From the NCBI GenBank assembly GCA_016218705.1, contig JACRDC010000093.1, positions 1 to 56,754 of the forward strand: a DNA stretch of 56,754 bases. The letters are read 5' to 3'. The notes beneath the pieces were generated by a model. It saw nothing but the letters and a program-made list of their open reading frames with translations. It was not told the DNA's origin and ran no database searches. Position 1 is the stretch's first letter. Each line of letters begins with the position of its first letter. This DNA is from Desulfarculus sp. (GTDB taxonomy: Bacteria > Desulfobacterota > Desulfarculia > Desulfarculales > Desulfarculaceae). Both the position numbers and the translations under genes were made by a program. Shown in pieces: positions 15,349 through 38,584 of the stretch.

Positions 15349-17079
15349 ATGAGGAAATGGGTTTCCCTGCTAACGTTGTTGACGCTGCTAGCGCTGCTTT
15401 GCCCGACCGCCGGCGCGGCGGCCGCCGCCAATGCCGGCGGGGCCGGCGACATCCTGGTCATCACCGGCAAGGTGGCCAATGCCCAGGGCAAGGGTGTCAA
15501 GGACGCCGGCCTCGAGATCGCCGTCAACGGCCAGAAGTTGCACCTGGACGACGAACTGGTCACCCTGAAGGACGGCAAGTATCACGCCGAGGTCAAGCTG
15601 CCGGCCGGCGCCCTGCCCGCGGCCAAGGTGACCCTGGAGGTGAAAAAGCCTTCCTATCACGACTCGGGGCAGGTGACCCTGGGCCAGGTATTCAAGGACC
15701 GCGAGGACGACAAGGGCAACGCCCAGTACCTGGCCCAGCAAAACGTCACCATCAAGCGGAGCATCTCTCCGGCCTTCTGGATCGCCACCCTGGTGCTCCT
15801 GGCGGTGTACGTGCTCATCGCCTTCGAGCTGATGCACCGCACCCTGGCGGCGGTGCTGGGCGGCTCCCTCTTGCTCACCATCTCCTACACCGCCGGCACC
15901 TTCAATCCCGCCTTCTTCGTGATGTCTTTCGAGGACGCCATGAAGGCCATAGACATGAACGTCATCTTCCTCTTGATGGCCATGATGATCATCGTGGGCG
16001 TGATGAAGAAGACCGGCGTGTTCCAGTGGCTGGCCTACAAGGCCTTCCAGTTGGCCAAGGGCAATGTCTACGTCCTGGCCGCCTTCATGATGTTCATCAC
16101 GGCCTTTGTCTCGGCCTTTTTGGACAACGTCACCACCATGCTCTTGATCATCCCGGTGACCATGGAGATCTGCGGCACGCTCAAGATCAACCCCATCGCC
16201 CTCTTGTTGCCCGAGGCCTTCGCCAGCAACGTGGGCGGCACGGCCACCCTGATCGGCGACCCGCCCAACATCATGATCGGCTCCTACGCCAAGCTGACCT
16301 TCGTGGACTTCGTCAGCCATCTGAGCATCATTTGCTTCCTGTGCCTGATCGTCACCATCATCTGGTACGTGTGGTGGTACAAGAAGGACTACCAGAAGGC
16401 CGAGGTCAAGGATGTGCCGCGCATGACCGAATACCTGCGCGAGGCCTACAAGATCACCAACGCCAAGCTGCTGGCCATCGGCGGCACCATCCTGGCCATC
16501 ACCATCTTCCTGTTCATCGTGCACGGGGCCCTGCACATGGAGCCCTCGGTGGCCGCGCTCATCGGCGCGGCGGTGCTCCTGGTCTTAAGCAAGGTGGACA
16601 TCGTGGAGATGCTGGAGAAGGAGATCGAGTGGCCCACGCTCATCTTCTTCATGTTCCTCTTCGTGGTGGTCTCCGGGGCCGAGGAGGCGGGCCTGATCCA
16701 GATCATCGCCGACTGGGTCAAGGACATGAGCCAGGGGTCCAAGGTGGTGGCCATCATCTTGATCCTGTGGGTCAGCGCCATCGCCAGCGCCTTCATTGAC
16801 AACATCCCCTTCACCGCCACCATGCTGCCCATCGTGGCCTACCTGACCGAGGTGATCCCCGGCGCCCAGACGGGCGTGTTGTGGTGGGCCTTGAGCCTGG
16901 GCGCCTGCCTGGGCGGCAACGGCACCATGATCGGCGCTAGCGCCAACGTGGTCACCTCGGGCATGGCCGAGAAGGCCGGCTACCCCATCAGCTTCATGGC
17001 CTACATGAAGGCCGCCTGGTGGCCCATGATAATCACCATCTTCATGTGCATGGGCTGGCTCTTGTTGGTCGAGAAATAG
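15349..17079 (+). CDS. ArsB/NhaD-superfamily permease with exported N-terminal domain
   Basis: 576 residues. A cleavable-looking signal sequence (residues 1-27, ending AGAAAAA) precedes an exported beta-rich domain of about 115 residues (ILVITGKVANAQGKGVKDAGLEIAVNG), resembling a carboxypeptidase-regulatory or Ig-like fold. The membrane part has about 11 helices with two ion-transporter signatures: SAFLDNVTTMLLIIPV with GGTATLIGDPPNIMIG, and SAFIDNIPFTATMLPIV with GGNGTMIGASANVV. This symmetry is typical of ArsB/NhaD/SLC13-type carriers. Such permeases move Na+/H+, arsenite or dicarboxylates; which applies is unknown. It is the last gene of the operon and is followed by a strong terminator. 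Confidence 0.8.
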   Translation: MRKWVSLLTLLTLLALLCPTAGAAAAANAGGAGDILVITGKVANAQGKGVKDAGLEIAVNGQKLHLDDELVTLKDGKYHAEVKLPAGALPAAKVTLEVKKPSYHDSGQVTLGQVFKDREDDKGNAQYLAQQNVTIKRSISPAFWIATLVLLAVYVLIAFELMHRTLAAVLGGSLLLTISYTAGTFNPAFFVMSFEDAMKAIDMNVIFLLMAMMIIVGVMKKTGVFQWLAYKAFQLAKGNVYVLAAFMMFITAFVSAFLDNVTTMLLIIPVTMEICGTLKINPIALLLPEAFASNVGGTATLIGDPPNIMIGSYAKLTFVDFVSHLSIICFLCLIVTIIWYVWWYKKDYQKAEVKDVPRMTEYLREAYKITNAKLLAIGGTILAITIFLFIVHGALHMEPSVAALIGAAVLLVLSKVDIVEMLEKEIEWPTLIFFMFLFVVVSGAEEAGLIQIIADWVKDMSQGSKVVAIILILWVSAIASAFIDNIPFTATMLPIVAYLTEVIPGAQTGVLWWALSLGACLGGNGTMIGASANVVTSGMAEKAGYPISFMAYMKAAWWPMIITIFMCMGWLLLVEK

Positions 17080-23006: not shown

Positions 23007-24011
23007 TCAGCTTGCCTTGAACTGTCCCAGCACCTGGGCGTAGTGCCCCAGGTCCTCGAAGGGCATGAGGGTGCCCATGGCGCGGTTGCGGGTGGGGATG
23101 CCGGCCTCCTCCACGGCGGCCAGGGGATTGAGGCCGCCCACCACCACCAGCCCCACCCGCCCCGGCGAGACCGGCACCTCCAACAGCGGCTGGCCGGGGC
23201 GCCCCACCAGGATGATGCCCCCCAGGCCGGCCCGCTCCATGCGCGCCGACAGGCGCCGGGCCAGGGGCGCCGCCGGGGCCGGTATCTCGCGGAAGCTGGC
23301 CCCCACCACGCCCTCGCCCGTGCGCACCGCCCGAAGCACCGCCGTCATCTGGCCCTTGATGAAGATCTCCAGGGGGTCCAGTGTGGTGCCGTCGTAGTTG
23401 ATGATCTGGGTGAAGCGCACCGGTTTGCCCCCCGCCACCTGCAACAGCCCCCCGAAGCGGTTGGTGGTGGGTATGCCCTCGGACAAGAGCACGCCATTGA
23501 CGCTCACCGAGCAGATGGTGGCCACCACGTATTCATCCGGCCCCACGCTCAGGCGCCCCACCCGCGAGCCGGGGCCGGCCAGCAAGAGGCTGTTGCCCAT
23601 GGAGAAGCCGCCGGCAAAGACCTCGCCCATCACCTTGGCCGCCGCGCCCACGTGCGAAGACTCCAGGGTGGAGAGGTTGACCACCACCTCGCCCTTGCTG
23701 GCGCGCAGGCGAAAGCGCATGCCATAGGTCAGTGCGTCAACCCGGGCGGCCACGAAGCCCACCTTCTCCACCACGTAGGCGTTTTCCAGCTCCTGGCGCC
23801 CCTGGGCTGTGAGCCGGCGGCCCCGGCGCCCCTCGCGGACGGTGAGCCCCTGGCGGTCGGTGTGCCCCAGGTAGTAGCGGATGGTGCGCTGGCTCATTTC
23901 GGTGCCGGCCAAGGCCAGGGCCTGTGCGATGCGCGTGCCGCCCAGGGGGCGGTCGGATTCGTCCAGGACCCGCAGGATGTCCAGGATTTTGCGGCGGCTG
24001 CGTTCGTCCAT
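23007..24011 (-). CDS. NrpR-like transcriptional regulator (winged helix + DUF128 domain)
   Basis: About 334 residues from ATG 24011 (MDERSRRKIL), which has GGAG seven bases upstream; an ATG at 24041 lacks a site. Residues 1-70 form the winged-helix domain (ILDILRVLDESDRPLGGTRIAQAL, MSQRTIRYYLGHTDRQGLT, GRRGRRLTAQG). The remainder is a single DUF128/NrpR regulatory domain (VVNLSTLESSHVGAAAKVM, FSMGNSLLLAGPGSRVGR, GIILVGRPGQPLLEVPVSPGRVGLVVVGGLNPLAAVEEAG). In methanogens NrpR represses nitrogen-assimilation genes and senses 2-oxoglutarate; bacterial homologues are less studied. Divergent from the nadE-to-gltB operon, which it may control (inference). Confidence 0.82.
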   Translation of the reverse strand: MDERSRRKILDILRVLDESDRPLGGTRIAQALALAGTEMSQRTIRYYLGHTDRQGLTVREGRRGRRLTAQGRQELENAYVVEKVGFVAARVDALTYGMRFRLRASKGEVVVNLSTLESSHVGAAAKVMGEVFAGGFSMGNSLLLAGPGSRVGRLSVGPDEYVVATICSVSVNGVLLSEGIPTTNRFGGLLQVAGGKPVRFTQIINYDGTTLDPLEIFIKGQMTAVLRAVRTGEGVVGASFREIPAPAAPLARRLSARMERAGLGGIILVGRPGQPLLEVPVSPGRVGLVVVGGLNPLAAVEEAGIPTRNRAMGTLMPFEDLGHYAQVLGQFKAS

Positions 24012-24410
24012 GCTCATACTCCGGCCAGGGGATTGGCCCAAAGCTAGCGCGTCTTGGGGGCCTGGTCAAGGGCCTATACTGCAATATTGCCGTATTTTGC
24101 CGGCCACGGGCCGTCCCGGCCCCAGGGGGGCACCGCCGGCCTTTATATTAGCATGCCTAATAACTCAGCCCAAGCCCCTATATAAGTCATTAGCCCTGGT
24201 CAAGGCCTGGCCCCTTGACAGGCCAGGCCGTCTATGGGATATAGGGCAATTGTTGCCGCTCTGTCTGGCCGGGGAGAAATCCCTGTATCCCTGGGAGTGA
24301 TGGGATATAATCCCGCCCAGGGCCGGTGTTTTGCTGCCCCGTCACGGCGACAGGCATTGTCACGCCCCTATTCCATGGGGGCATCCGGCGGATGGAAGCG
24401 AAGTCCGATC
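24012..24410. other. Divergent intergenic region, NrpR-like gene / nadE operon
   Basis: About 400 bp without a gene. It contains two palindromes: GCAATATTGC at 24081-24090 and TATTAG-CATGC-CTAATA at 24146-24162, both possible operators. TATAAT at 24306-24311 is a candidate -10 for the plus-strand operon, but the matching -35 (CTGTAT at 24283) is poor. Confidence 0.55.
24146..24162. promoter_or_regulatory. Candidate operator palindrome TATTAG-N5-CTAATA
   Basis: Perfect 6-bp arms around CATGC, 135 bp upstream of the NrpR-like start and 249 bp upstream of nadE. Its binding protein is unknown; the adjacent NrpR-like regulator is the first candidate. It does not match the archaeal NrpR operator GGAA-N6-TTCC. 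Confidence 0.35.
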
Positions 24411-26114: not shown

Positions 26115-26205
26115 GGCCAGCCGGGCTGAACCCGGCCCGCCGGCCGCCCCTCGGGCGCGGCCTTTGCTCATGCGGGCCGGGCGGGACATGCAAAAAGGAG
26201 TGACC

Positions 26206-26643
26206 ATGGCCGCCGCCAAACCTGACAGCAATTTTTCGCCGGAGATAGTGGCGCTCTACTGCCGGCAGTGCCTGGACGCCGAGGAGCGCCCCCAGGAGGG
26301 CGCCCGCCCGGCCAAGGGCTTCAACGCCCGCCTGGTGATGCTGCCTTGCAGCGGCAAGGTGGAGGCCTATCAGATGCTCAGGATACTGGAGCAGGGGGCG
26401 GACGGGGTGCTGTTGGTGGGCTGCCCGGAGAACGCCTGCCGCTTCCTGGTGGGCAGCCGGCGGGCCGAGAAGCGCCTGACCCACGCCGGCCAGCTCCTGG
26501 ACCTGGTCAACATGGGCGCCGGCCGCCTGGCGCTCAAACGCGCCGCCGACCTTACCACCGCCGACATCCTGGCCCTGGCCGGCCAACTGGCCGAGCGGGT
26601 CAAGACCCTGGGGCCCAACCCCATGAAAGGAGACAGCCTCTAA
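26206..26643 (+). CDS. MvhD/FlpD-like iron-sulfur subunit
   Basis: 145 residues from ATG 26206, with AGGAG five bases upstream. The protein follows the MvhD pattern: IVALYCRQC near the N-terminus, VMLPCSGKVEAYQMLRILEQGADGVLLVGCPENACRF and a following RRAEKRLTHAGQLL. MvhD-type proteins carry a 2Fe-2S cluster and join hydrogenases or dehydrogenases to heterodisulfide reductase HdrABC; in acetogens an MvhD is found with MetFV. Here it directly precedes metV (stop and start share one base), so an electron-transfer role for methylene-THF reductase is likely. No hdrABC genes are in the window, which is a gap in the expected complex. Confidence 0.8.
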   Translation: MAAAKPDSNFSPEIVALYCRQCLDAEERPQEGARPAKGFNARLVMLPCSGKVEAYQMLRILEQGADGVLLVGCPENACRFLVGSRRAEKRLTHAGQLLDLVNMGAGRLALKRAADLTTADILALAGQLAERVKTLGPNPMKGDSL

Positions 26644-27311
26644 TGATCGTAGCCGAGTGGAAACCAATCCCCGAGCTTCTGGCCTCGCTTAAGGGCCATA
26701 AGAACGTCCTGTTGGTGGGCTGCGCCACCTGCGTGGCCGAGTGCGCCGCCGGCGGCGAGCGCGAGGTGCTGACCCTGGCCCCGGTGCTCAAGATGGGGCT
26801 CAAGGACCAGGGCCAGGAGGTCAACATCATCACCCGCACCCTGGAGCGCCAGTGCGAGCCCGAGTTCGTGGAGGAACTGGCGGAGATAGCGCCCCAGGTG
26901 GACGCCATCATGAGCCTCGCCTGCGGCATCGGCATGCAGTTGGTGGCCGAGCGCTTCATTGACCTGCCGCTCTACCCCGGCGTCAACACCACCTCCCTGG
27001 CCATCCGCGAGCAGCCCGGCCTGTGGACGGCGCGCTGCGCCGCCTGCGGCGACTGCATGCTGGGCGAGACCTTTGGCCTGTGCCCCGTGGCCCGCTGCGC
27101 CAAGAGCCTGATGAACGGCCCCTGCGGCGGCACCCGCAAGGACGGCAAGTGCGAGGTGGACGAAAACACCGAGTGCATCTGGCGCCTGATCGTGGAGCGC
27201 GCCGAGGCCAAGGGCCGCCTGGAAGACCTGGTCAAGGTGCGCCCCAGCAAGAACTGGTCAAACTCCGGCCATGGCGGCCCCAAGAGAATGCTGAGGGAGG
27301 ACCTGCGCTAA
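26643..27311 (+). CDS. metV: MetV, zinc/Fe-S partner of methylene-tetrahydrofolate reductase
   Basis: 222 residues. Two cysteine-rich regions are visible: VGCATCVAECAAGG near residues 21-34 and, in the C-terminal half, CAACGDCMLGETFGLCPVARC followed by LMNGPCGGTRKDGKCEVD. The latter is the hallmark of the MTHFR C-terminal-type domain (MetV). In Moorella and related organisms MetV forms the core of the reductase with MetF. It overlaps mvhD-like by one base and metF by one base (TAATG at both junctions), giving tight translational coupling. Function: electron input to the MetF flavin (known of the family). Confidence 0.87.
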   Translation: MIVAEWKPIPELLASLKGHKNVLLVGCATCVAECAAGGEREVLTLAPVLKMGLKDQGQEVNIITRTLERQCEPEFVEELAEIAPQVDAIMSLACGIGMQLVAERFIDLPLYPGVNTTSLAIREQPGLWTARCAACGDCMLGETFGLCPVARCAKSLMNGPCGGTRKDGKCEVDENTECIWRLIVERAEAKGRLEDLVKVRPSKNWSNSGHGGPKRMLREDLR

Positions 27312-28249
27312 TGAAAACCCCGGTACAAACCAAGCTGCAACAGGCCATCGCCGCCGGACGCTTCGCGCTGACCCTGGAGATAGGCCCGCCCCAGAGCCCC
27401 AATCCCGAGCCCCTGCGTAAAAAGGCCGAGATCATCAAGGGCCTGGCCGACGGCTACAACGTCACCGACAACCAGACCGCCGTGGTGCGCATGAGCTCCA
27501 TCGCCGCCTCCAAGATCATCCTGGAGATGGGGCTGGAGCCGGTGATGCAGATGGTCTGCCGCGACCGCAACCGCATCGCCATGCAGTCCGACCTGCTGGG
27601 CGCCTCGGCCCTGGGCCTCAAGAACGTGCTGGCGCTTTCCGGCGACCACCAGAAGGCTTCCGCCGCCGGCAAGCTCAAGGGCCACCCCGGGGCCAAGAAC
27701 GTCTACGACATAGACTCCATCCAGCTCATCGCCACCATCAAGGGCCTGCGCGACGAGGCCAAGCAGGAGGGCGGCGACGCCATCGCCGAGCCGGCGCCCT
27801 TTTTCATCGGCGCGGCCTGGACGCCCCTGGGCACCCCGCGCAACTTCCGCGTGCTGCGCCTGGCCAAGAAGATCGCCGCCGGCGCCGACTTCATCCAGAC
27901 CCAGGCCGTCTACGACGTGCCGGCCTTCGCCGCCCAGGTGGCCAAGGCCCGCGACATGGGGCTCACCGACAAGGCCGCCATCCTGGCCGGCATCATCGTG
28001 CCCCGCTCCGCTGGCATGCTCAGCTACATGGACCGCCAGGTGCCCGGCGTGGAGGTGCCCGCCGAGCTGATCGCGCGCATGAAGCAGGCCAAGGACGCCA
28101 AGGCCGAGGGCATCAAGGTCACGGTGGAGCTGATCCAGGCCGTGCGCGCCATCCCCGGCGTCAAGGGCGTGCACCTGCAGGCCATCGAGGCCGAGGAGCT
28201 GTTGCCCGAGATCGTGAAGGCGGCCGGGCTGTCGCCCCAGGACAGGTAG
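27311..28249 (+). CDS. metF: 5,10-Methylenetetrahydrofolate reductase
   Basis: 312 residues starting at ATG 27311. It has the MTHFR fold signatures: FALTLEIGPPQSPNPEPL at the N-terminus, DNQTAVVRMSSIAAS, PVMQMVCRDRNRIAMQSDLLGASALGLKNVLALSGDH, and ADFIQTQAVYDVPAF. It reduces methylene-THF to methyl-THF using FAD, for methionine synthesis or, with MetV and MvhD, in the methyl branch of the Wood-Ljungdahl pathway (in either direction). The MetV partner indicates a ferredoxin/hydride-type enzyme rather than the simple NADH-dependent one. Followed after 53 bp by the glutamate synthase genes on the same strand. Confidence 0.92.
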   Translation: MKTPVQTKLQQAIAAGRFALTLEIGPPQSPNPEPLRKKAEIIKGLADGYNVTDNQTAVVRMSSIAASKIILEMGLEPVMQMVCRDRNRIAMQSDLLGASALGLKNVLALSGDHQKASAAGKLKGHPGAKNVYDIDSIQLIATIKGLRDEAKQEGGDAIAEPAPFFIGAAWTPLGTPRNFRVLRLAKKIAAGADFIQTQAVYDVPAFAAQVAKARDMGLTDKAAILAGIIVPRSAGMLSYMDRQVPGVEVPAELIARMKQAKDAKAEGIKVTVELIQAVRAIPGVKGVHLQAIEAEELLPEIVKAAGLSPQDR

Positions 28250-28302
28250 GTCCCAGGACGCGGGCCGCCGGCCCGCGCAAAGCATAAGGCGGGAACCAAG
28301 CA

Positions 28303-31263
28303 ATGCCTAAGAAGTACCACGTGGACGTCAATCCCACCGCGCCGCGTTTCGCGCCGGTGACCAAGACGGCGGCCTTCGAGAGCGACGGCTGCCTGGGGTG
28401 CCTGAAGTGCGTCAAGCGCACCAGTTGCATCTACAAGGTCTACCAGAAGCACGACTTCGACCCCTTGCGGGTGGTGGACACCACCGACGTGGATTGCCTG
28501 TCCTGCATGCGCTGCGTGCAGGAATGCAAGAAGGCCATCCTCACCCGGGGCCGCAACCCCCAGTTCGACCGCCTGGGTGATGAATACTGGCGGCCCGACA
28601 TCCTGGCCACCCTGTGGAAGCAGGCCGAGACCGGTAAGATACCCGTCTCGGGCGCCGGCTACCGGGGCAACTTCTCGGGGCCGGGCTTCGACCAGATGTG
28701 GACCGACATGAGCGAGATCGTGCGCCCCACCCGCGACGGCATCCACGGCCGCGAGTACATCAGCACCGTGGTGGAGCTGGGGCGGCGGCCGGGGCAACTT
28801 GTCTTCGACCAGGACGGCGCCCTGGCGGTGGATATCCCCCCCTACCGCGAGATCCCCCTGCCCATCGTCTTCGACATCCCCCGCAAGGGCAAATTGACCG
28901 CCGGCAACCGCCGGGCCATGGCCCTGGCCGCCCAAAAGCTGGGCACCCTGGCCGCCGCCACCCAGGAAGAGGCCGAGGGCGCCCTCAAGGACCTGCGCGG
29001 CTCGCTGATGGTGCTCTTGCACCAGGCGCCGGCCAACGCCAAGGTGCTTGAAGGCCTGGCCATGGTGGAGCTGCCCTGGTCCGATACGGTGATGGAGCAG
29101 GTGGCCAAGGTCAAAAAACTGCGGCCCGGCATAGTCACCAGCGTGCGCCTGCCCCTGGACGAGCGCGCCGCCTCCAACGCCGCGCTGTTGGCCCGGGAGG
29201 GCGCCGAGGTGATCCACCTCCTGGCCAACTCGGCCGGCAGGGGCTTTGGCCAGCGGGCCGAGGCCTTCGTGGCCAAGCTCACCCGCGAGGTGCACCTCAA
29301 GCTGGTGGAGGACTCCACCCGCGACCAGATCACCCTCTTGGTCAGCGGCGGCGTGGCCCTGGCCGAGCACGTGGCCAAGGCCATCATCAGCGGCGCCGAC
29401 GCCGTGGGCCTGGGCTTGGCCCTCATGGTGGGCCTGGAGTGCCGCCTGTGCGGCAACTGCGCCGAGGGCGCGCCGTGCCCGGTGTCCATGGAGAGCGTGG
29501 ACGAGGCCTGGGGCTTCAAGCGGCTGATGAACCTCATCGGCGCCTACCACTCCCAGATCATCGAGCTTATGGGCGCCATGGGCATGCGCGAGGTGCGGCG
29601 TCTGCGCGGCGAGGTGGGCCGGGCCATGGTCTTCGACGACCTGGAGCGCATGAGCTTCGCGCCCATCTTCGGCCAGCGCATCAGCGAGGGGCAGGGACGC
29701 CTCATGCCCCCCGACCCCCTGGACTACGCCGCCAGCAACGGCTTCGCCCTGACCAAGGACCTGGTCAAGCCGTCTCCCAGCCGCTACCGCAACCCGCTGA
29801 CCAAGTTCCGCGTGGAGCGCACCACCGATTGCATCGCCTGCGGCAAGTGCGCCGAGGTCTGCGGCTTCGGGGTGCACAAGAAGGCTGGCCAGGCCATGCT
29901 GGGCACCCGCTCCCGCTTCTGCATGGGCGCCGAATACTGCAAGGCCCGGGGCGCCTTCTGCGCCGACACCTGCCCGGTGGGGGCGCTGCGCGTGGGCGCC
30001 AATCCGGCCTGGAAGACCTTCGGCGACCCCCGCTGGCCCGCAGACCTCCTGGTGGCCACCTGGGAGCAGGCCGAGACCGGCCGTCCACCGGCCAGCAACC
30101 TGGAATACCGCGTGGGCAATAGCGGCGGCGGCTTCGACCGCATGGACTTCGTCATCCCCGCCGAGGCCCCGGACAAGTCCTTCGGGCCAGGGGACGTGGA
30201 CCTGACGGTGGAACTCAACCGCCGGCGCGACGAAGAGCGCCCGCGCATCACCATCGGCTGGCCCATCTACGGCGGTGGCATGAGCTTCGGCTCGGTGAGC
30301 CTGTCCACCATGGTCAGCCGCGGCAAGGCCTTCGCCACCTACGACTCCTTCACCTGCACCGGCGAGGGCGGCTACCCCGACGTGCTCAAGCCCTACGACG
30401 ACCACGTCATCACCCAGGTGGCCACGGGGCTCTTCGGCGTGCGCGAGGAGACCATCCAGCGGGTGCGCATCGTGGAGTTCAAGTACGCCCAGGGCGCCAA
30501 GCCCGGCCTGGGCGGCCACCTCTTGGGCGACAAGGTCACCCCCGAGGTGGCGCGCATGCGCGAGGCCACCGAGGGCAGCTCGCTCTTCTCGCCCTTCCCC
30601 TTCCACTCGGTCTACTCGGTGGAGGACCACAAGAAGCACGTGGATTGGATCAAGATGATCAATCCGCGCACCCTCGTCTCGGTCAAGGTCTCCACCCCGG
30701 TGGACGTGGACATGGTGGCCGTGGGCAGCTTCTACGCCGGGGCGCACATCGTGCACCTGGACGGCTCCTACGGCGGCACCGGCGCCGCCCCCGACATCGC
30801 CAAGAAGAACATCGCCATGCCCATCGAGTACGCCATTCCCCTGGTACACCGCTTCCTCAAGGAGGAAGGCATCCGCGATCAGGTGACCCTGGTGGCCTCG
30901 GGCGGCCTGCGCACCGCCTGGGACGTGGCCAAGGCCATCGCCCTGGGCGCCGACGCCATCGTCATCGGCACCGCCGACATGGTGGCCCTGGAATGCATCC
31001 GCTGCGCCAACTGCGAGTCCGGGCGCGGCTGCCCCCGGGGCATCGCCACCACCGACAGCGAGTTGGCCCTGGCCTACGGCACCGAGTGGGGCTCCCAGCG
31101 GCTCATCAACCTCTACCACTCCTGGGCGGTGCAGCTCCAGACCCTCTTGTGGCGGCTGGGGCTCAAAAGCATCCGCGACCTGGTGGGGCGCAGCGACCTG
31201 TTGACCCACCTGGACTACCAGCAGCCCGACAATCCCAAGGCTGAACGCCGCATGGGGCAGTAA
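28303..31263 (+). CDS. FMN/ferredoxin glutamate synthase, internally duplicated
   Basis: 986 residues made of two tandem modules. The first ferredoxin domain has C30-C33-C36-C42 and C65-C68-C71-C75. It is followed by a shortened synthase-like part with VSGGVALAEHVAKAIISGADAVGLGLAL and CRLCGNCAEGAPC (residues about 350-395). A second ferredoxin domain starts near residue 510 (CIACGKCAEVC) and leads to a full FMN synthase domain (GGGMSFGSVSLSTM, FKYAQGAKPGLGGHLLG, LDGSYGGTGAAP, ASGGLRTAWDVAKAIALGADAI, CIRCANCESGRGC). The first module lacks the GGMSFG and QGAKPG segments, so it is probably non-catalytic. With the next gene it forms a glutamate synthase from 2-oxoglutarate and glutamine-derived ammonia. 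Stop and next start are two bases apart. Confidence 0.85.
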   Translation: MPKKYHVDVNPTAPRFAPVTKTAAFESDGCLGCLKCVKRTSCIYKVYQKHDFDPLRVVDTTDVDCLSCMRCVQECKKAILTRGRNPQFDRLGDEYWRPDILATLWKQAETGKIPVSGAGYRGNFSGPGFDQMWTDMSEIVRPTRDGIHGREYISTVVELGRRPGQLVFDQDGALAVDIPPYREIPLPIVFDIPRKGKLTAGNRRAMALAAQKLGTLAAATQEEAEGALKDLRGSLMVLLHQAPANAKVLEGLAMVELPWSDTVMEQVAKVKKLRPGIVTSVRLPLDERAASNAALLAREGAEVIHLLANSAGRGFGQRAEAFVAKLTREVHLKLVEDSTRDQITLLVSGGVALAEHVAKAIISGADAVGLGLALMVGLECRLCGNCAEGAPCPVSMESVDEAWGFKRLMNLIGAYHSQIIELMGAMGMREVRRLRGEVGRAMVFDDLERMSFAPIFGQRISEGQGRLMPPDPLDYAASNGFALTKDLVKPSPSRYRNPLTKFRVERTTDCIACGKCAEVCGFGVHKKAGQAMLGTRSRFCMGAEYCKARGAFCADTCPVGALRVGANPAWKTFGDPRWPADLLVATWEQAETGRPPASNLEYRVGNSGGGFDRMDFVIPAEAPDKSFGPGDVDLTVELNRRRDEERPRITIGWPIYGGGMSFGSVSLSTMVSRGKAFATYDSFTCTGEGGYPDVLKPYDDHVITQVATGLFGVREETIQRVRIVEFKYAQGAKPGLGGHLLGDKVTPEVARMREATEGSSLFSPFPFHSVYSVEDHKKHVDWIKMINPRTLVSVKVSTPVDVDMVAVGSFYAGAHIVHLDGSYGGTGAAPDIAKKNIAMPIEYAIPLVHRFLKEEGIRDQVTLVASGGLRTAWDVAKAIALGADAIVIGTADMVALECIRCANCESGRGCPRGIATTDSELALAYGTEWGSQRLINLYHSWAVQLQTLLWRLGLKSIRDLVGRSDLLTHLDYQQPDNPKAERRMGQ

Positions 31264-31265
31264 TC

Positions 31266-33944
31266 ATGAAGCACGAGAGGACCGGCACAGTGGCCAGGCT
31301 AGTTGACATAAACGGCAACCCCGTCCGCCCCGCGGGGCCGGACGATCTCCCAGGACTGACCGAGCGCATCCTGGCCCACCGGCGCAAGCTGGCGGCCCAG
31401 GGCGGGGCCATCAGCCCCCAGAAGGCCGCCGAGGAAGGCGGCTGCGGGGTGGTGGGCTTCGCGGCCAGCGTGCCGGTGCGCGGGCGTCACATCTTCGAGC
31501 CCTCGGTGCAGATGCACAACCGGGGCAACGGCAAGGGCGGCGGCATCGCCGCGGCGGGTCTATCGGCCCAGCAACTGGGCGTGGACGCCGCCACCCTCAA
31601 GAACGACTACATCCTGCAGGTGGCCCTGCTTGACCCCTCGGCCGAGGCCGAGGTGGAGCAGGCCTGGGTCAGCCCCTTCCTGGAGGTGCACCACAAGGCC
31701 GCCGTCACGCCGGTCATGGACTGGCGCGACCTGGGCCTGGAGGTCAGGCCCCCCGACGTGGTGCGCTACTTCGTGCGCGTCAAGGACCAGGCCCTGGACA
31801 AGTTCGCCGCCGAGACCAAGATGGAGGGGATGGAGCGCCGGGCGGTGGAGGACGAGTTCATCTACCGCAACTCCTTCAACCTCAACCAGAACTTCTACAC
31901 CAGCCTAGGCGAGAAGCGGGCCTTCGTCTTGAGCCACGCCCGCGACCTGGTGATCCTCAAGCTGGTGGGCTACGCCGAGCACGTGGTGCAGTACTACGGC
32001 ATGGAGGACTTCAAGGCCCACATGTGGATCGCCCACCAGCGCTACCCCACCAAGGGCCGCGTGTGGCACCCCGGCGGCAGCCACCCCTTCATCGGCCTCA
32101 ACGAGGCCCTGGTGCACAACGGCGACTTCGCCAACTACTACAGCGTCTCGGAGTACCTGCGCCAGCACGGCATCGTCACCCAGTTCCTCACCGACACCGA
32201 GGTCTCGGCGCTTCTGTTCGACCTGCTCAGCCGGGTCTACCACTACCCGCTGGAGTACGTCATCGAGGCCATGGCCCCCACCACCGAGCTGGACTTCGAC
32301 CGTCTGCCGGCCGACAAGCAGAAGGTGTACAAGGCCATCCAGGCCCAGCACATCCACGGCTCGCCCGACGGCCCCTGGTTCTTCATCATCGCCCGCAGCC
32401 GGCCCGACCTGGGCAACTACCAGCTCCTGGGCATCACCGACACGGCCATGCTGCGGCCCCAGGTCTTCGCCCTGCAAGAGGGCGAGGTGACCATCGGCCT
32501 GGTGGGCTCGGAGAAGCAGGCAATTGACGCCACCCTGCGCTCTTTAACCGAGGACGACCCCCGCTTCCGCCGGGTGGCCGACCGCTACTGGAACGCGCGC
32601 GGCGGCAGCGCCACCGACGGCGGGGCCTTCATCTTCAACGTGCAGGCCCAGGCAGGCGGCGGCTTCGAGCTGACCTGCACCGACAAATTCGGCACGCCCA
32701 TCCTCTGCCCGCCGGGGCAGTTCAAGGTGGATGAGTCCGAGCCCCTGGCCGCCCCCGCCCAGCCCGCCGGCCTGGTCCTGGGCCAGGGCACGGCGCCAGA
32801 GACCTTCGCCCGGGTGGCCGGCGCGGCGGCCTCCTACAACTTCGCCAACTGGCGCTGGCTTACTCACCAGGCGCTGGCCCTGGCGGCCCAGGACGACCAG
32901 GGCACCGCCTGGGCCCTGGAGTTCCTCACCCTGCTTAACGACATGCGCTACGATTGCGGCGGCCTGAAGCGCAGCATGGTCTTGCAGCTCATACGCGACG
33001 CCATCAACTCCCTGCTGGACGCCGTGCCGCCCCTGGCTGCCCAGGCCGGCCGGGCTTTTGCCCGCGTGGACTGGGCCACCCGGGGCGATTTGCGCGCGCC
33101 GGTGGGCAACGAGAAGACCCTGGTGGTCTTTGCCCGCGAGTTCGAGCCCGAGGGCGACGACTGCGACTCGCGGCTGGAGGTGGCGGCCCACGGCCTGGGC
33201 TGGCGCCGGTTCGTCGTCTACGGCCTCAAGGGCCAGCGCTTCCACGGCTGCGCCCTGGGCGTGGACAGCCAGGACGTGCGCATTGACCTCTACGGCAGCT
33301 CCGGCGACTACCTGGCCTCGGGCATTGACGGGCTGACCATCGTGGTGCACGGCAACGCCCAGGACCAACTGGGCCAGATCATGAAGCAGGGCACCCTGGT
33401 GGTGCACGGCGACGTGGGCCAGACCTTCATGTATGGCGCCAAGGGCGGCGAGGTCTACGTCAAGGGCAACGCTGCCGGCCGGCCGCTCATCAACGCCGTG
33501 GGGCGGCCCCGGGTGGTGATCAACGGCACCTGCCTGGACTTTTTGGCCGAGTCCTTCATGGCCGGCGACCCCTTGAAGGGCGGCGGCTTCGTGGTGCTCA
33601 ACGGCGTGGAGTTCGACGACCAGGGCCGGGTGCGCCCCCTGGCCAGCCCCTACCCGGGCAGCAACCTCTTCTCCCTGGCCTCGGGCGGCGCCATCTACGT
33701 GCGCGACCCCCACCGCCAACTGGTGGACCAGCAACTCAACGGCGGCCACTACTTCGACATGACCCAGGAGGACTGGCAGCTCATCCTGCCCTACCTGCAA
33801 AAGAACCAGGAGCTGTTCGGCATCTCCATCGAGGATGACCTGTTGATGGTGGACGGCCAGAGGCGCTCGCCCCTGGAGGTCTACCGCAAGGTGGGGGCCG
33901 TCAAGCTGGCCGTGCTGGCCAAGCAGGAGGCCCTGCCGGAGTAA
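31266..33944 (+). CDS. Glutamate synthase subunit: class II amidotransferase + GXGXG domain
   Basis: 892 residues. The class II glutamine amidotransferase nucleophile is C60 in EEGGCGVVGFAAS, preceded by an unusually long 59-residue leader that would have to be removed to expose the Cys. The GATase body includes MHNRGNGKGGG, AHQRYPTKGRVWHPGGSHPFIGLNEALVHNGDF and FLTDTEVSA. The C-terminal third is the GXGXG beta-helix domain (LVVHGDVGQTFMYGAKGGEVYVKGNAAGRPLINAVG). The central FMN domain of ordinary GltB is missing and is supplied by the preceding gene, so this resembles the split archaeal-type arrangement. The stop is followed directly by a two-hairpin repeat element. Confidence 0.87.
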   Translation: MKHERTGTVARLVDINGNPVRPAGPDDLPGLTERILAHRRKLAAQGGAISPQKAAEEGGCGVVGFAASVPVRGRHIFEPSVQMHNRGNGKGGGIAAAGLSAQQLGVDAATLKNDYILQVALLDPSAEAEVEQAWVSPFLEVHHKAAVTPVMDWRDLGLEVRPPDVVRYFVRVKDQALDKFAAETKMEGMERRAVEDEFIYRNSFNLNQNFYTSLGEKRAFVLSHARDLVILKLVGYAEHVVQYYGMEDFKAHMWIAHQRYPTKGRVWHPGGSHPFIGLNEALVHNGDFANYYSVSEYLRQHGIVTQFLTDTEVSALLFDLLSRVYHYPLEYVIEAMAPTTELDFDRLPADKQKVYKAIQAQHIHGSPDGPWFFIIARSRPDLGNYQLLGITDTAMLRPQVFALQEGEVTIGLVGSEKQAIDATLRSLTEDDPRFRRVADRYWNARGGSATDGGAFIFNVQAQAGGGFELTCTDKFGTPILCPPGQFKVDESEPLAAPAQPAGLVLGQGTAPETFARVAGAAASYNFANWRWLTHQALALAAQDDQGTAWALEFLTLLNDMRYDCGGLKRSMVLQLIRDAINSLLDAVPPLAAQAGRAFARVDWATRGDLRAPVGNEKTLVVFAREFEPEGDDCDSRLEVAAHGLGWRRFVVYGLKGQRFHGCALGVDSQDVRIDLYGSSGDYLASGIDGLTIVVHGNAQDQLGQIMKQGTLVVHGDVGQTFMYGAKGGEVYVKGNAAGRPLINAVGRPRVVINGTCLDFLAESFMAGDPLKGGGFVVLNGVEFDDQGRVRPLASPYPGSNLFSLASGGAIYVRDPHRQLVDQQLNGGHYFDMTQEDWQLILPYLQKNQELFGISIEDDLLMVDGQRRSPLEVYRKVGAVKLAVLAKQEALPE

Positions 33945-34296: not shown

Positions 34297-35853
<1,557 letters not shown>

Positions 35854-37255: not shown

Positions 37256-38584
37256 ATGGCAGTGATGACTAAGGAGAGTGTGCTGAAGGCGGTCAAGGAC
37301 AACAACATCAAGTTCATCCGCCTGTGGTTCACCGACATTCTGGGCTTCCTCAAAAGCTTCGCCATCTCCCCCTCGGAGCTGGAAGGCGCCTTTGACGAGG
37401 GCATGGGCTTCGACGGCTCCTCCATCCAGGGCTTCTGCCGCATTGACGAGTCCGACATGGTGGCCAAGCCCGACGCCAGCACCTTCACCCTGCTGCCCTG
37501 GCGTCCCACCGAGGGCGGCGTGGCCCGCATGTTCTGCGACATCCTTAACCCCGACGGCACCCCCTACGAGGGCGACCCCCGCTACGTGCTCAAGCGCAAC
37601 CTGAAGAAGGCCGCCGACCTGGGCTACACCATGTACGTGGGTCCGGAGCTGGAGTTCTTCTACTTCAAGGACAACAAGGGCACCGAGTTCCTGGACTACG
37701 GCGGCTACTTCGATCTCACCCCCCTGGACGTGGCCTCCGACCTCAGGCGCGACACCATCCTGGCGCTGGAGAAGATGGGCATCGCCGTGGAGTACAGCCA
37801 CCACGAGGTGGCCCCCAGCCAGCACGAGATTGACCTGCGCTACCAGGAAGCCCTCAAGATGGCCGACGCGGCCATGACCTACCGCCTGACGGTCAAAGAG
37901 ATCGCCATGAAGCACGGCGTGTACGCCACCTTCATGCCCAAGCCCATCTTCGGCCAGAACGGCTCGGGCATGCACGTGCACCAGTCGCTGTTCAAGGGCA
38001 AGAAGAACGCCTTCTTCGACGCCAAGGACGAGTACAGCCTCTCGGCCCAGGGCAAGGCCTACATCGCCGGTCTGCTCAAGCACGCCCCGGAGATCAGCTC
38101 CATCGTGGCCCAGTGGGTCAACTCCTACAAGCGCCTGGTGCCTGGCTACGAGGCCCCGGCCTACATCGCCTGGGCGCGGCGCAACCGCTCCTGCCTGGTG
38201 CGCGTGCCCATGTACAAGCCCGGCAAGGAAGCCGCCACCCGCTGCGAGCTGCGCTGCCCCGACCCCGCGGCCAACCCCTACCTGACCTTCGCCGCCATGC
38301 TGGCCGCCGGCCTCAAGGGCATCCAGGAAAACTACACCCTGCCGACCCCCATCGAGGAGGACATCTTCGAGATGGGTCCCAAGGAGTTGAAGAAGCACAA
38401 GATCAACTCCATGCCCGGCAGCCTGGGCGAGGCCGTGGAGATCACCGCCAAGAGCTCCCTGGTCAAGGAGTGCCTGGGCGAGCACGTCTTCGAGCAGTTC
38501 GTGGAGAACAAGCGCATCGAGTGGGACAAGTTCCGCATCCACGTCAGCCAGTGGGAGCTGGACCGCTACCTCCCCATTCTGTGA
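37256..38584 (+). CDS. glnA: Glutamine synthetase, type I-alpha
   Basis: 442 residues from ATG 37256, with AAGGAGGA about eight bases upstream. Conserved motifs: MGFDGSSIQGF, YVGPELEFFYF, SHHEVAPSQHEIDLRY, FMPKPIFGQNGSGMHVHQSL, NSYKRLVPGYEAPAYIAWARRNRS and RCELRCPDPAANPYL. The C-terminal region (YTLPTPIEEDIFEMGPKEL) has no adenylylation-site Tyr, and the short length fits the GSI-alpha class, which is controlled by feedback rather than GlnE. It makes glutamine from glutamate, ammonia and ATP, supplying the split glutamate synthase encoded 4 kb upstream. Transcription appears sigma-54 dependent with two enhancer palindromes. Confidence 0.95.
   Translation: MAVMTKESVLKAVKDNNIKFIRLWFTDILGFLKSFAISPSELEGAFDEGMGFDGSSIQGFCRIDESDMVAKPDASTFTLLPWRPTEGGVARMFCDILNPDGTPYEGDPRYVLKRNLKKAADLGYTMYVGPELEFFYFKDNKGTEFLDYGGYFDLTPLDVASDLRRDTILALEKMGIAVEYSHHEVAPSQHEIDLRYQEALKMADAAMTYRLTVKEIAMKHGVYATFMPKPIFGQNGSGMHVHQSLFKGKKNAFFDAKDEYSLSAQGKAYIAGLLKHAPEISSIVAQWVNSYKRLVPGYEAPAYIAWARRNRSCLVRVPMYKPGKEAATRCELRCPDPAANPYLTFAAMLAAGLKGIQENYTLPTPIEEDIFEMGPKELKKHKINSMPGSLGEAVEITAKSSLVKECLGEHVFEQFVENKRIEWDKFRIHVSQWELDRYLPIL

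Follow-up and report, generated by a model that had tools for sequence, protein, structure and literature searches.

A degenerate glutamate synthase half as a probable iron–sulfur adaptor between exchangeable electron donors and a fused glutamate synthase subunit

Glutamate synthase is a main entry of nitrogen into metabolism, and its known forms are supplied with electrons by NAD(P)H, by ferredoxin, or, as has been proposed, by F420H2. For methanogens, the available parts of one report propose, from gene context, that the synthase subunit of FGltS(I) and FGltS(II) is paired with an F420H2 input subunit (PMC3448663), and a MetFV–MvhD–HdrABC complex is known in Moorella thermoacetica from two reports, likewise available in part (PMC6085437, PMC7325909, citing Mock et al. 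2014). The stretch of DNA analyzed here, hereafter the window, comprises 56,754 nucleotides of Desulfarculus sp. (assembly GCA_016218705.1, contig JACRDC010000093.1, positions 1–56,754, forward strand) and carries an open reading frame (ORF) at 28303–31263 (+), which starts with ATG and encodes a 986-amino-acid (aa) glutamate synthase fusion of two homologous halves. We propose that the first half is, more likely than not, an iron–sulfur adaptor that wires exchangeable electron donors to the fused split (archaeal-like) glutamate synthase subunit. The proposal is made because the half is homologous to glutamate synthase and has lost the catalytic segments but kept its cysteine clusters, because donor-type genes are its near-constant partners, because it occurs naturally fused with a flavin adenine dinucleotide (FAD) oxidase in a single polypeptide, and because its predicted fold is GltS-like.

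Compared with GltS alpha subunits (1ea0, 1ofd, and 7mfm; PF01645), the second half of the protein shares the synthase segments, the first half shares the fold, three barrel-end cysteines of the second half align with GltS cysteines, and a GXGXG domain and a putative amidotransferase domain are present here too; however, the system is divided between two genes and has an extra cysteine (CxxCxxCx5C), two ferredoxin domains, and a degenerate first barrel, and no GltD-type gene lies on the contig, since none of the eight Fer4_20 places of the genome falls there. The ordinary synthase subunit of about 510 aa (L201–L208) likewise has a ferredoxin domain and a barrel with separate amidotransferase and GXGXG parts, but those eight loci have neither a first half nor MvhD. 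An alternative electron-input subunit is common to this locus and to FGltS(I)/(II); theirs, however, is an FrhB/FdhB-like F420H2 dehydrogenase, and no pseudo-synthase adaptor is described in the available parts of that report (PMC3448663), while the Pfam scan of the five operon genes of the window found no FrhB/FdhB-like subunit among them. The MvhD–MetV–MetF module is shared with Moorella as far as the partly available reports go, but here it adjoins glutamate synthase, and HdrABC is not among the operon genes (FlpD, MetV, MetF, the synthase fusion, and the glutamine amidotransferase/GXGXG gene; Pfam), no dedicated Hdr search of the rest of the genome having been made. In a published Hdr-type protein with an NADH site, MvhD also adjoins a glutamate-synthase-like part according to the accessible text, and that part is presumably GltD-like rather than a synthase barrel. 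The FAD oxidases found at some loci share FAD_binding_4, mostly FAD-oxidase_C, and a GlcF-like Fer4_8 with LctD/GlcD–GlcF-type enzymes (7qh2_C), but adjoin or are fused with the first half and the synthase. Neither a pseudo-synthase adaptor nor an MvhD/MetVF link to glutamate synthase was found described in the open-licence literature searched, in the portions available (PMC2702500, PMC5736913, PMC9012536, PMC7325909, PMC6085437, PMC7117923, PMC12054007, PMC3448663, and PMC6046458 among it); on that footing these two appear new, while alternative input subunits, as proposals, and MetFV–MvhD–HdrABC are already known.

The first half (28303–29757, +; residues 1–485) comprises an eight-cysteine ferredoxin domain at residues 30–75 (C30/33/36/42/65/68/71/75), a degenerate barrel, and a barrel-end CxxCxxCx5C motif at 380–392 (C380-xx-C383-xx-C386-x5-C392), and the catalytic segments are absent from it. 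The second half (29758–31263, +; residues 486–986) comprises a ferredoxin domain at 510–557 (C510/513/516/520/540/546/553/557), the flavin mononucleotide (FMN) domain of glutamate synthase with its catalytic segments, and the corresponding motif at 898–910 (C898-xx-C901-xx-C904-x5-C910). The VSGG/ASGG barrel end is present in both, so the ferredoxin domain, SGG end, and CxxCxxCx5C cluster that the first-pass annotation of the gene had ascribed to each half were all located. GGMSFG (658–663) and QGAKPG (730–735) occur in the second half only, as do TGEGG and GGTGAA. When residues 1–500 were aligned with residues 501–986 by BLASTP, as that annotation had suggested, the similarity was significant at both the barrel end (33% over 199 aa, E 3e-25) and the ferredoxin end (32% over 139 aa, E 5e-14), these E-values applying to a single comparison. 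In separate Pfam scans of the halves, the second matches PF01645 (Glu_synthase) with 302.1 bits over profile positions 57–368 and the first with 47.7 bits (cut-off 20.4) over positions 195–368 only. The second half also matches solved GltS chains (E 8e-52). Together with the next gene, it is assigned as glutamate synthase from its synthase FMN domain with catalytic segments and from the GXGXG domain of that gene, while the first half, a member of the PF01645 profile that lacks the catalytic and FMN segments, is classed on the same kind of evidence as a pseudo-synthase and not as a synthase. The next gene (31266–33944, +) begins 2 bases past the synthase stop and encodes an 892-aa protein with a putative glutamine amidotransferase domain and a GXGXG domain (PF13522, 27.0 bits, at the cut-off; PF01493, 59.9 bits against 32.5), in which glmS/purF-type amidotransferase matches stay under their cut-offs and an EEGG-C-GVVGF cysteine motif was spotted by eye.

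First-half homologues were surveyed with residues 1–476 as the query in 297 genomes, an even sample of a larger group from the phylum, the genome of the window among them. Matches at E 1.3e-70 or better were found in 76 of them (those in G150 and G273 being partial), 61 of which have an open frame of 456–511 aa; five further genomes show 27–29% identity over most of the query within frames of 1924–2553 aa. A wider contig scan gave 24 first-half loci, mostly fused, from metagenome-assembled genomes (MAGs) labeled Desulfarculaceae, Nitrospiria, Fibrobacteria, Chloroflexi, Phycisphaerae, and others, labels that are tentative for such loci since single MAG contigs may be mis-binned. After L018 and L117 were dropped as belonging to the second-half type, 158 first-half records were reduced to 109 distinct ones by clustering at 98%. 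The usual form is a separate gene of about 470 aa preceding the second half: 68 are split, 36 are fused to the second half (28 of the window type and eight with an FAD oxidase), and for five, the contig contains no second half.

Across these 109 distinct first halves, none contains GGMS, QGAK, GTGAA, or TGEGG; among the 88 second halves that their contigs cover to a sufficient length, GGMS is found in 82, QGAKP in 88, GGTGAA in 87, TGEGG in 87, and CxxCxxCx5C in 88. All eight ferredoxin cysteines are kept in 104 first halves, four of the remainder being truncated by contig ends and one (L053) having lost several, and 108 retain the SGG glycines. A segment RPTRDG[IF]HGRE, which in the window forms part of a conserved SGAGY...RPTRDGIHGRE stretch at residues 116–151, is found in 99. 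The position aligned with Gly889 in the IGTA loop of the second half, i.e., the second phosphate-loop position, is Asp in 93 and Gly in seven, the first half of the window being among the seven. In an AlphaFold2 model, the first half forms a complete (β/α)8-like barrel, with a predicted local distance difference test score (pLDDT) above 85 for most of residues 181–420, and the top five fold matches to it are glutamate synthase alpha subunits (Z 20.8–22.2, 298–318 residues, 3.4–4.3 Å; VIA-align), the best being 1ea0 (Z 22.2, 302 residues, 3.5 Å). The absence of GGMSFG and QGAKPG from the first half, claimed earlier for this gene, thus extends to all 109 distinct copies, yet the structure prediction also proposed at the time returned a complete GltS-like barrel; this rules out the reading as a half-barrel, which was considered because PF01645 matches with only the second part of its profile. 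The PF01645 match, the alignment of the halves, and the GltS fold place the first half with the synthases, and not in the unrelated family that had been named as the contrary outcome.

The first-pass annotation had left out the likely partners MvhD, MetV, and MetF, which lie just upstream of 28303. They are an MvhD/FlpD-like protein (26164–26643, +; PF02662, 74.9 bits against a cut-off of 22.3), whose true start is likely the ATG at 26206, a MetV-like protein (methylene-tetrahydrofolate reductase C-terminal; 26640–27311, +; PF12225, 112.5 bits), and a MetF-like methylene-tetrahydrofolate reductase (27308–28249, +; PF02219, 130.7 bits). The MvhD of the window is assigned to the MvhD/FlpD family by its profile and by its kept cluster cysteines, C33, C62, C87, and C92, each of which is found in 84–85 of 86 adjacent MvhDs, the remainder being gaps; the second cysteine of the CxxC at 33–36 is variable (Cys in 12 of the 86 synthase-linked copies). 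Its PDB relatives are MvhD chains, and one solved homologue, 9sfi_K, has an X, perhaps selenocysteine, at the position of C87. The MetV cysteines are conserved in 59–65 of 65.

Of the 109 first halves, 83 have MvhD within 4 kb upstream in the same orientation, and 13 have an FAD oxidase with a ferredoxin domain there, while one (L187) has neither and 12 have too little sequence; when only the 82 loci whose upstream sequence exceeds 2.5 kb are considered, the counts are 70 for MvhD, 11 for a GlcD/GlcF-like FAD oxidase, and one for neither. MetV and/or MetF accompany MvhD at 63 of its 83 loci, window included, with both present at 53, MetV only at seven, and MetF only at three, one of which (L094) is a fragment overlapping the first-half start and probably no gene. 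The other 20 MvhD loci have neither, 12 of them with more than 2.5 kb upstream. At L097, MvhD is the gene immediately preceding the first half, and a separate MvhD–MetV–MetF set is located some 3 kb past the operon, where it follows a 1020-aa HdrA-like protein; at L103 and L113, the gene order is MvhD–MetV–MetF–MvhD–first half. Because of the loci lacking MetV and MetF and these arrangements with two MvhDs, MvhD goes with the first half itself and not only with MetV and MetF. As a control, MvhD was found at none of the eight ordinary glutamate synthase loci, which have no first half, and at neither of two loci of further PF01645 paralogues within the fetched 7.5–12.5 kb.

At eight loci (L108, L109, L110, and L193–L197), a single frame encodes an FAD oxidase, the first half, and the beginning of the synthase or more. 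Six of these frames (2531–2553 aa) run on through the amidotransferase and GXGXG domains, while those of L110 and L195 break further down. The fusion at L108 (2201–9787, −; 2529 aa) was profiled whole and has all these domains, including Fer4_8, with the amidotransferase just under its cut-off at 26.4 bits; the other fusions were recognized by tblastn. Since none of the eight has the motif C..C..C...C within the 500 aa that precede the matched second half, the ferredoxin domain lying between oxidase and synthase belongs to the first half. FAD_binding_4 and Fer4_8 were identified in all four of the stand-alone FAD oxidases that were scanned, and FAD-oxidase_C in three of them; the two that were scanned with NCBIfam resemble GlcD plus the GlcF N-terminus, below the curated cut-offs (including that of TIGR00387).

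In the proposed mechanism, the second half would catalyze the formation of glutamate from glutamine-derived ammonia, 2-oxoglutarate, and two electrons, with the ammonia supplied, by homology only, by the amidotransferase from the adjoining gene. The first half, a putative pseudo-synthase of the same subunit descent, would have kept its two-cluster ferredoxin domain after the flavin and substrate segments were lost, and four cysteines at its barrel end would hold an additional cluster in most MvhD-type systems. An exchangeable electron-input module would dock onto it, i.e., an MvhD-type protein, often with MetV/MetF (the window and most genomes), or a GlcD/GlcF-like FAD oxidase (others), and the electrons would pass from this module through the first-half clusters to the second-half clusters and FMN and thence to glutamate. 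The docked complex, the route and direction of the electrons, the lack of FMN in the first half, and a reductant feeding MvhD are what we infer from the arrangement described above. The earlier suggestion that the first half is either a built-in electron entry or a structural domain is thereby narrowed: electron entry is best supported by the gene context, and a structural scaffold is retained as a rival.

Several observations weigh against the adaptor. Eight of the 20 MvhD loci without MetV and MetF have less than 2.5 kb upstream, the adjacency of MvhD could partly reflect sharing with these two proteins, and two of the eight control loci have a short, weak FAD-oxidase match (about 65 aa; E 5e-4 and 1e-5). 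There are only a few FAD-oxidase types, which are related to one another, and the donor switch amounts to one change, hence one independent pair, on the tree of 107 first halves. The barrel-end cluster is present in 80 MvhD types, missing from two (L041 and L088), and cut off in one, and among FAD-oxidase types, it is missing from 12 and present in one; because of the single donor switch, this association is weak and not independent evidence. As for the models, the ferredoxin, 115–152, and C-terminal regions of the first half are poorly predicted (pLDDT below 50 for the first two), IMPDH and mandelate oxidase follow close behind GltS (Z 20.2), so that GltS is not distinguished by fold alone, and the full-length model is unreliable between domains (predicted template modeling score 0.54) and unusable for cluster distances. 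The first half may also still bind FMN, above all the copy of the window, which has Gly at the IGTA-loop position. A role of the barrel-end cluster as the docking site of MvhD was considered and is kept as a hypothesis only, given the one independent pair and the exceptions L041, L088, and L188.

Pseudo-enzyme subunits are often structural, and it is conceivable, if unlikely, that the first half is a non-redox scaffold for oligomerization or regulation, with the ferredoxin domain as a structural relic and MvhD, MetV, and MetF co-regulated without contact. The RPTRDG[IF]HGRE segment would suit such a role, being conserved in 99 of 109 outside the cysteines and role-less so far, as would the loss of the barrel-end cluster at L041 and L088 in the presence of MvhD; however, a scaffold accounts poorly for the retention of eight ferredoxin cysteines in 104 first halves, for the input module at 81 of the 82 loci that have sufficient upstream sequence (more than 2.5 kb), and for its fusion to the first half in eight. 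The complete predicted barrel and the SGG glycines of 108 first halves could instead point to an active enzyme of another kind, in which an FMN barrel linked to the synthase acts on a different substrate. This is very improbable, given that the synthase segments are missing from all 109, that Asp occupies the second phosphate-loop position in 93, and that no new active-site signature was spotted, though no systematic search was made.

It is improbable that MvhD serves MetV and MetF only, the synthase genes being merely downstream in a shared nitrogen and one-carbon operon. In Moorella, according to the available text of two reports (PMC6085437, PMC7325909), MvhD–MetV–MetF is known as a module that goes with HdrABC, and in the window, the stop of MvhD overlaps MetV, and that of MetV overlaps MetF, by 4 bases each. 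When the other MvhDs of the genome were scored with a profile of synthase-linked MvhDs, the top three of the 12 extracted were those near MetF genes, which fits either a methyl-tetrahydrofolate donor or a donor shared by MetV, MetF, and glutamate synthase. The 20 of 83 MvhD loci without MetV and MetF, 12 of them with ample upstream sequence, the paired MvhDs at L097, L103, and L113, and the absence of MvhD from the eight ordinary synthase loci argue to the contrary. The MvhD and MetF of the operon look like dedicated paralogues, because the genome has 15 FlpD places and five methylene-tetrahydrofolate reductase places. A one-carbon-driven synthase is a speculative extension of the adaptor that we consider unlikely as it stands: MetF would oxidize 5-methyl-tetrahydrofolate, and MetV, MvhD, and the first half would pass the electrons directly to glutamate formation. 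On this reading, MetF–MetV–MvhD would correspond functionally to the FAD oxidase found in its position in other genomes, as a flavin dehydrogenase with an iron–sulfur wire, and MvhD at loci without MetF would take electrons from another dehydrogenase.

The origin of the first half was examined in a rooted quick tree of 41 rows, which holds 28 first halves, with second halves and ordinary subunits as the outgroup (the second half of L100 was skipped for a stop). The first halves form one clade (99% in the Shimodaira–Hasegawa-like approximate likelihood ratio test), within which the FAD-oxidase types diverge earliest and the MvhD types occupy a nested position (96%), an order that is tentative in a quick tree. 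The larger tree holds 107 of the 109 first halves, short rows being excluded; in it, a single clade (100%) of 28 rows unites the fused genes of the window type, and fused and split states need two changes overall. A recent tandem duplication inside the gene is ruled out because the first halves form their own clade and are mostly separate genes; the trees indicate that the first half is an old paralogue and the window form a later gene fusion. The earlier description of the gene as an unusual duplication therefore holds insofar as it is not the usual subunit of about 510 aa and consists of two homologous modules, but not in the sense of a recent internal duplication.

Were the adaptor proposal true, a dead relative of the synthase would act as a socket for interchangeable electron donors, namely MvhD, often together with parts of methylene-tetrahydrofolate reductase, or an FAD oxidase of the hydroxyacid type. 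This would be a new solution, and nitrogen assimilation in sulfate reducers and other anaerobes could be tied to one-carbon or Hdr-type electron flow. Misreading of the first half as an active glutamate synthase would be avoided, and the source of electrons for the enzyme in these anaerobes would become directly testable; the one-carbon reading, if true, would mean that ammonia assimilation is wired to the (reverse) Wood–Ljungdahl pathway.

The surroundings of the operon suggest a nitrogen-assimilation setting. NadE and NrpR lie upstream, the latter an NrpR-type nitrogen regulator (23007–24041, −; PF01995, 252.4 bits; PF08461, 55.6 bits), and downstream follow a GAF and sigma-54 activator with a Fis-type helix–turn–helix (34297–35853, +; PF00158, 249.1 bits) and a glutamine synthetase-like ORF (37256–38584, +), which was named from reading the ORF and has homologues, by tblastn, beside first-half genes at other loci. 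NrpR regulators are known best from archaea. Their operator, which we take to be GGAA-N6-TTCC, was not found near the operon; the single match in the window, at 15353, is far off, with 0.57 expected by chance, and lends no support.

Some further observations concern the partner genes. Seven loci (L042, L090, L092, L093, L101, L154, and L165) have MvhD–MetV–first half without MetF, where MetV has seemingly been retained in the absence of the flavoprotein that normally accompanies it. Five of the 15 MvhD/FlpD places of the genome contain an in-frame TGA, which is probably selenocysteine, as described for Desulfobacterium autotrophicum in a report available in part (PMC2702500). A further PF01645 paralogue of about 530–570 aa occurs in the genome itself (G000:C13:47350-47742; L003, L118), and such a paralogue lies upstream of the MvhD of the synthase operon at L094:6780-8372, L095:12245-13957, and L115:4930-6540. 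Genes for a HisH-like glutamine amidotransferase and a HisF-like protein adjoin MvhD at L049:89-1468, L052:4164-5543, and L116:6708-8121, that of L052 having been profiled and the others assigned by clustering. Finally, an antisense ORF of 1061 aa (28024–31209, −) spans the synthase fusion gene in the window and is most likely a by-product of high G+C.

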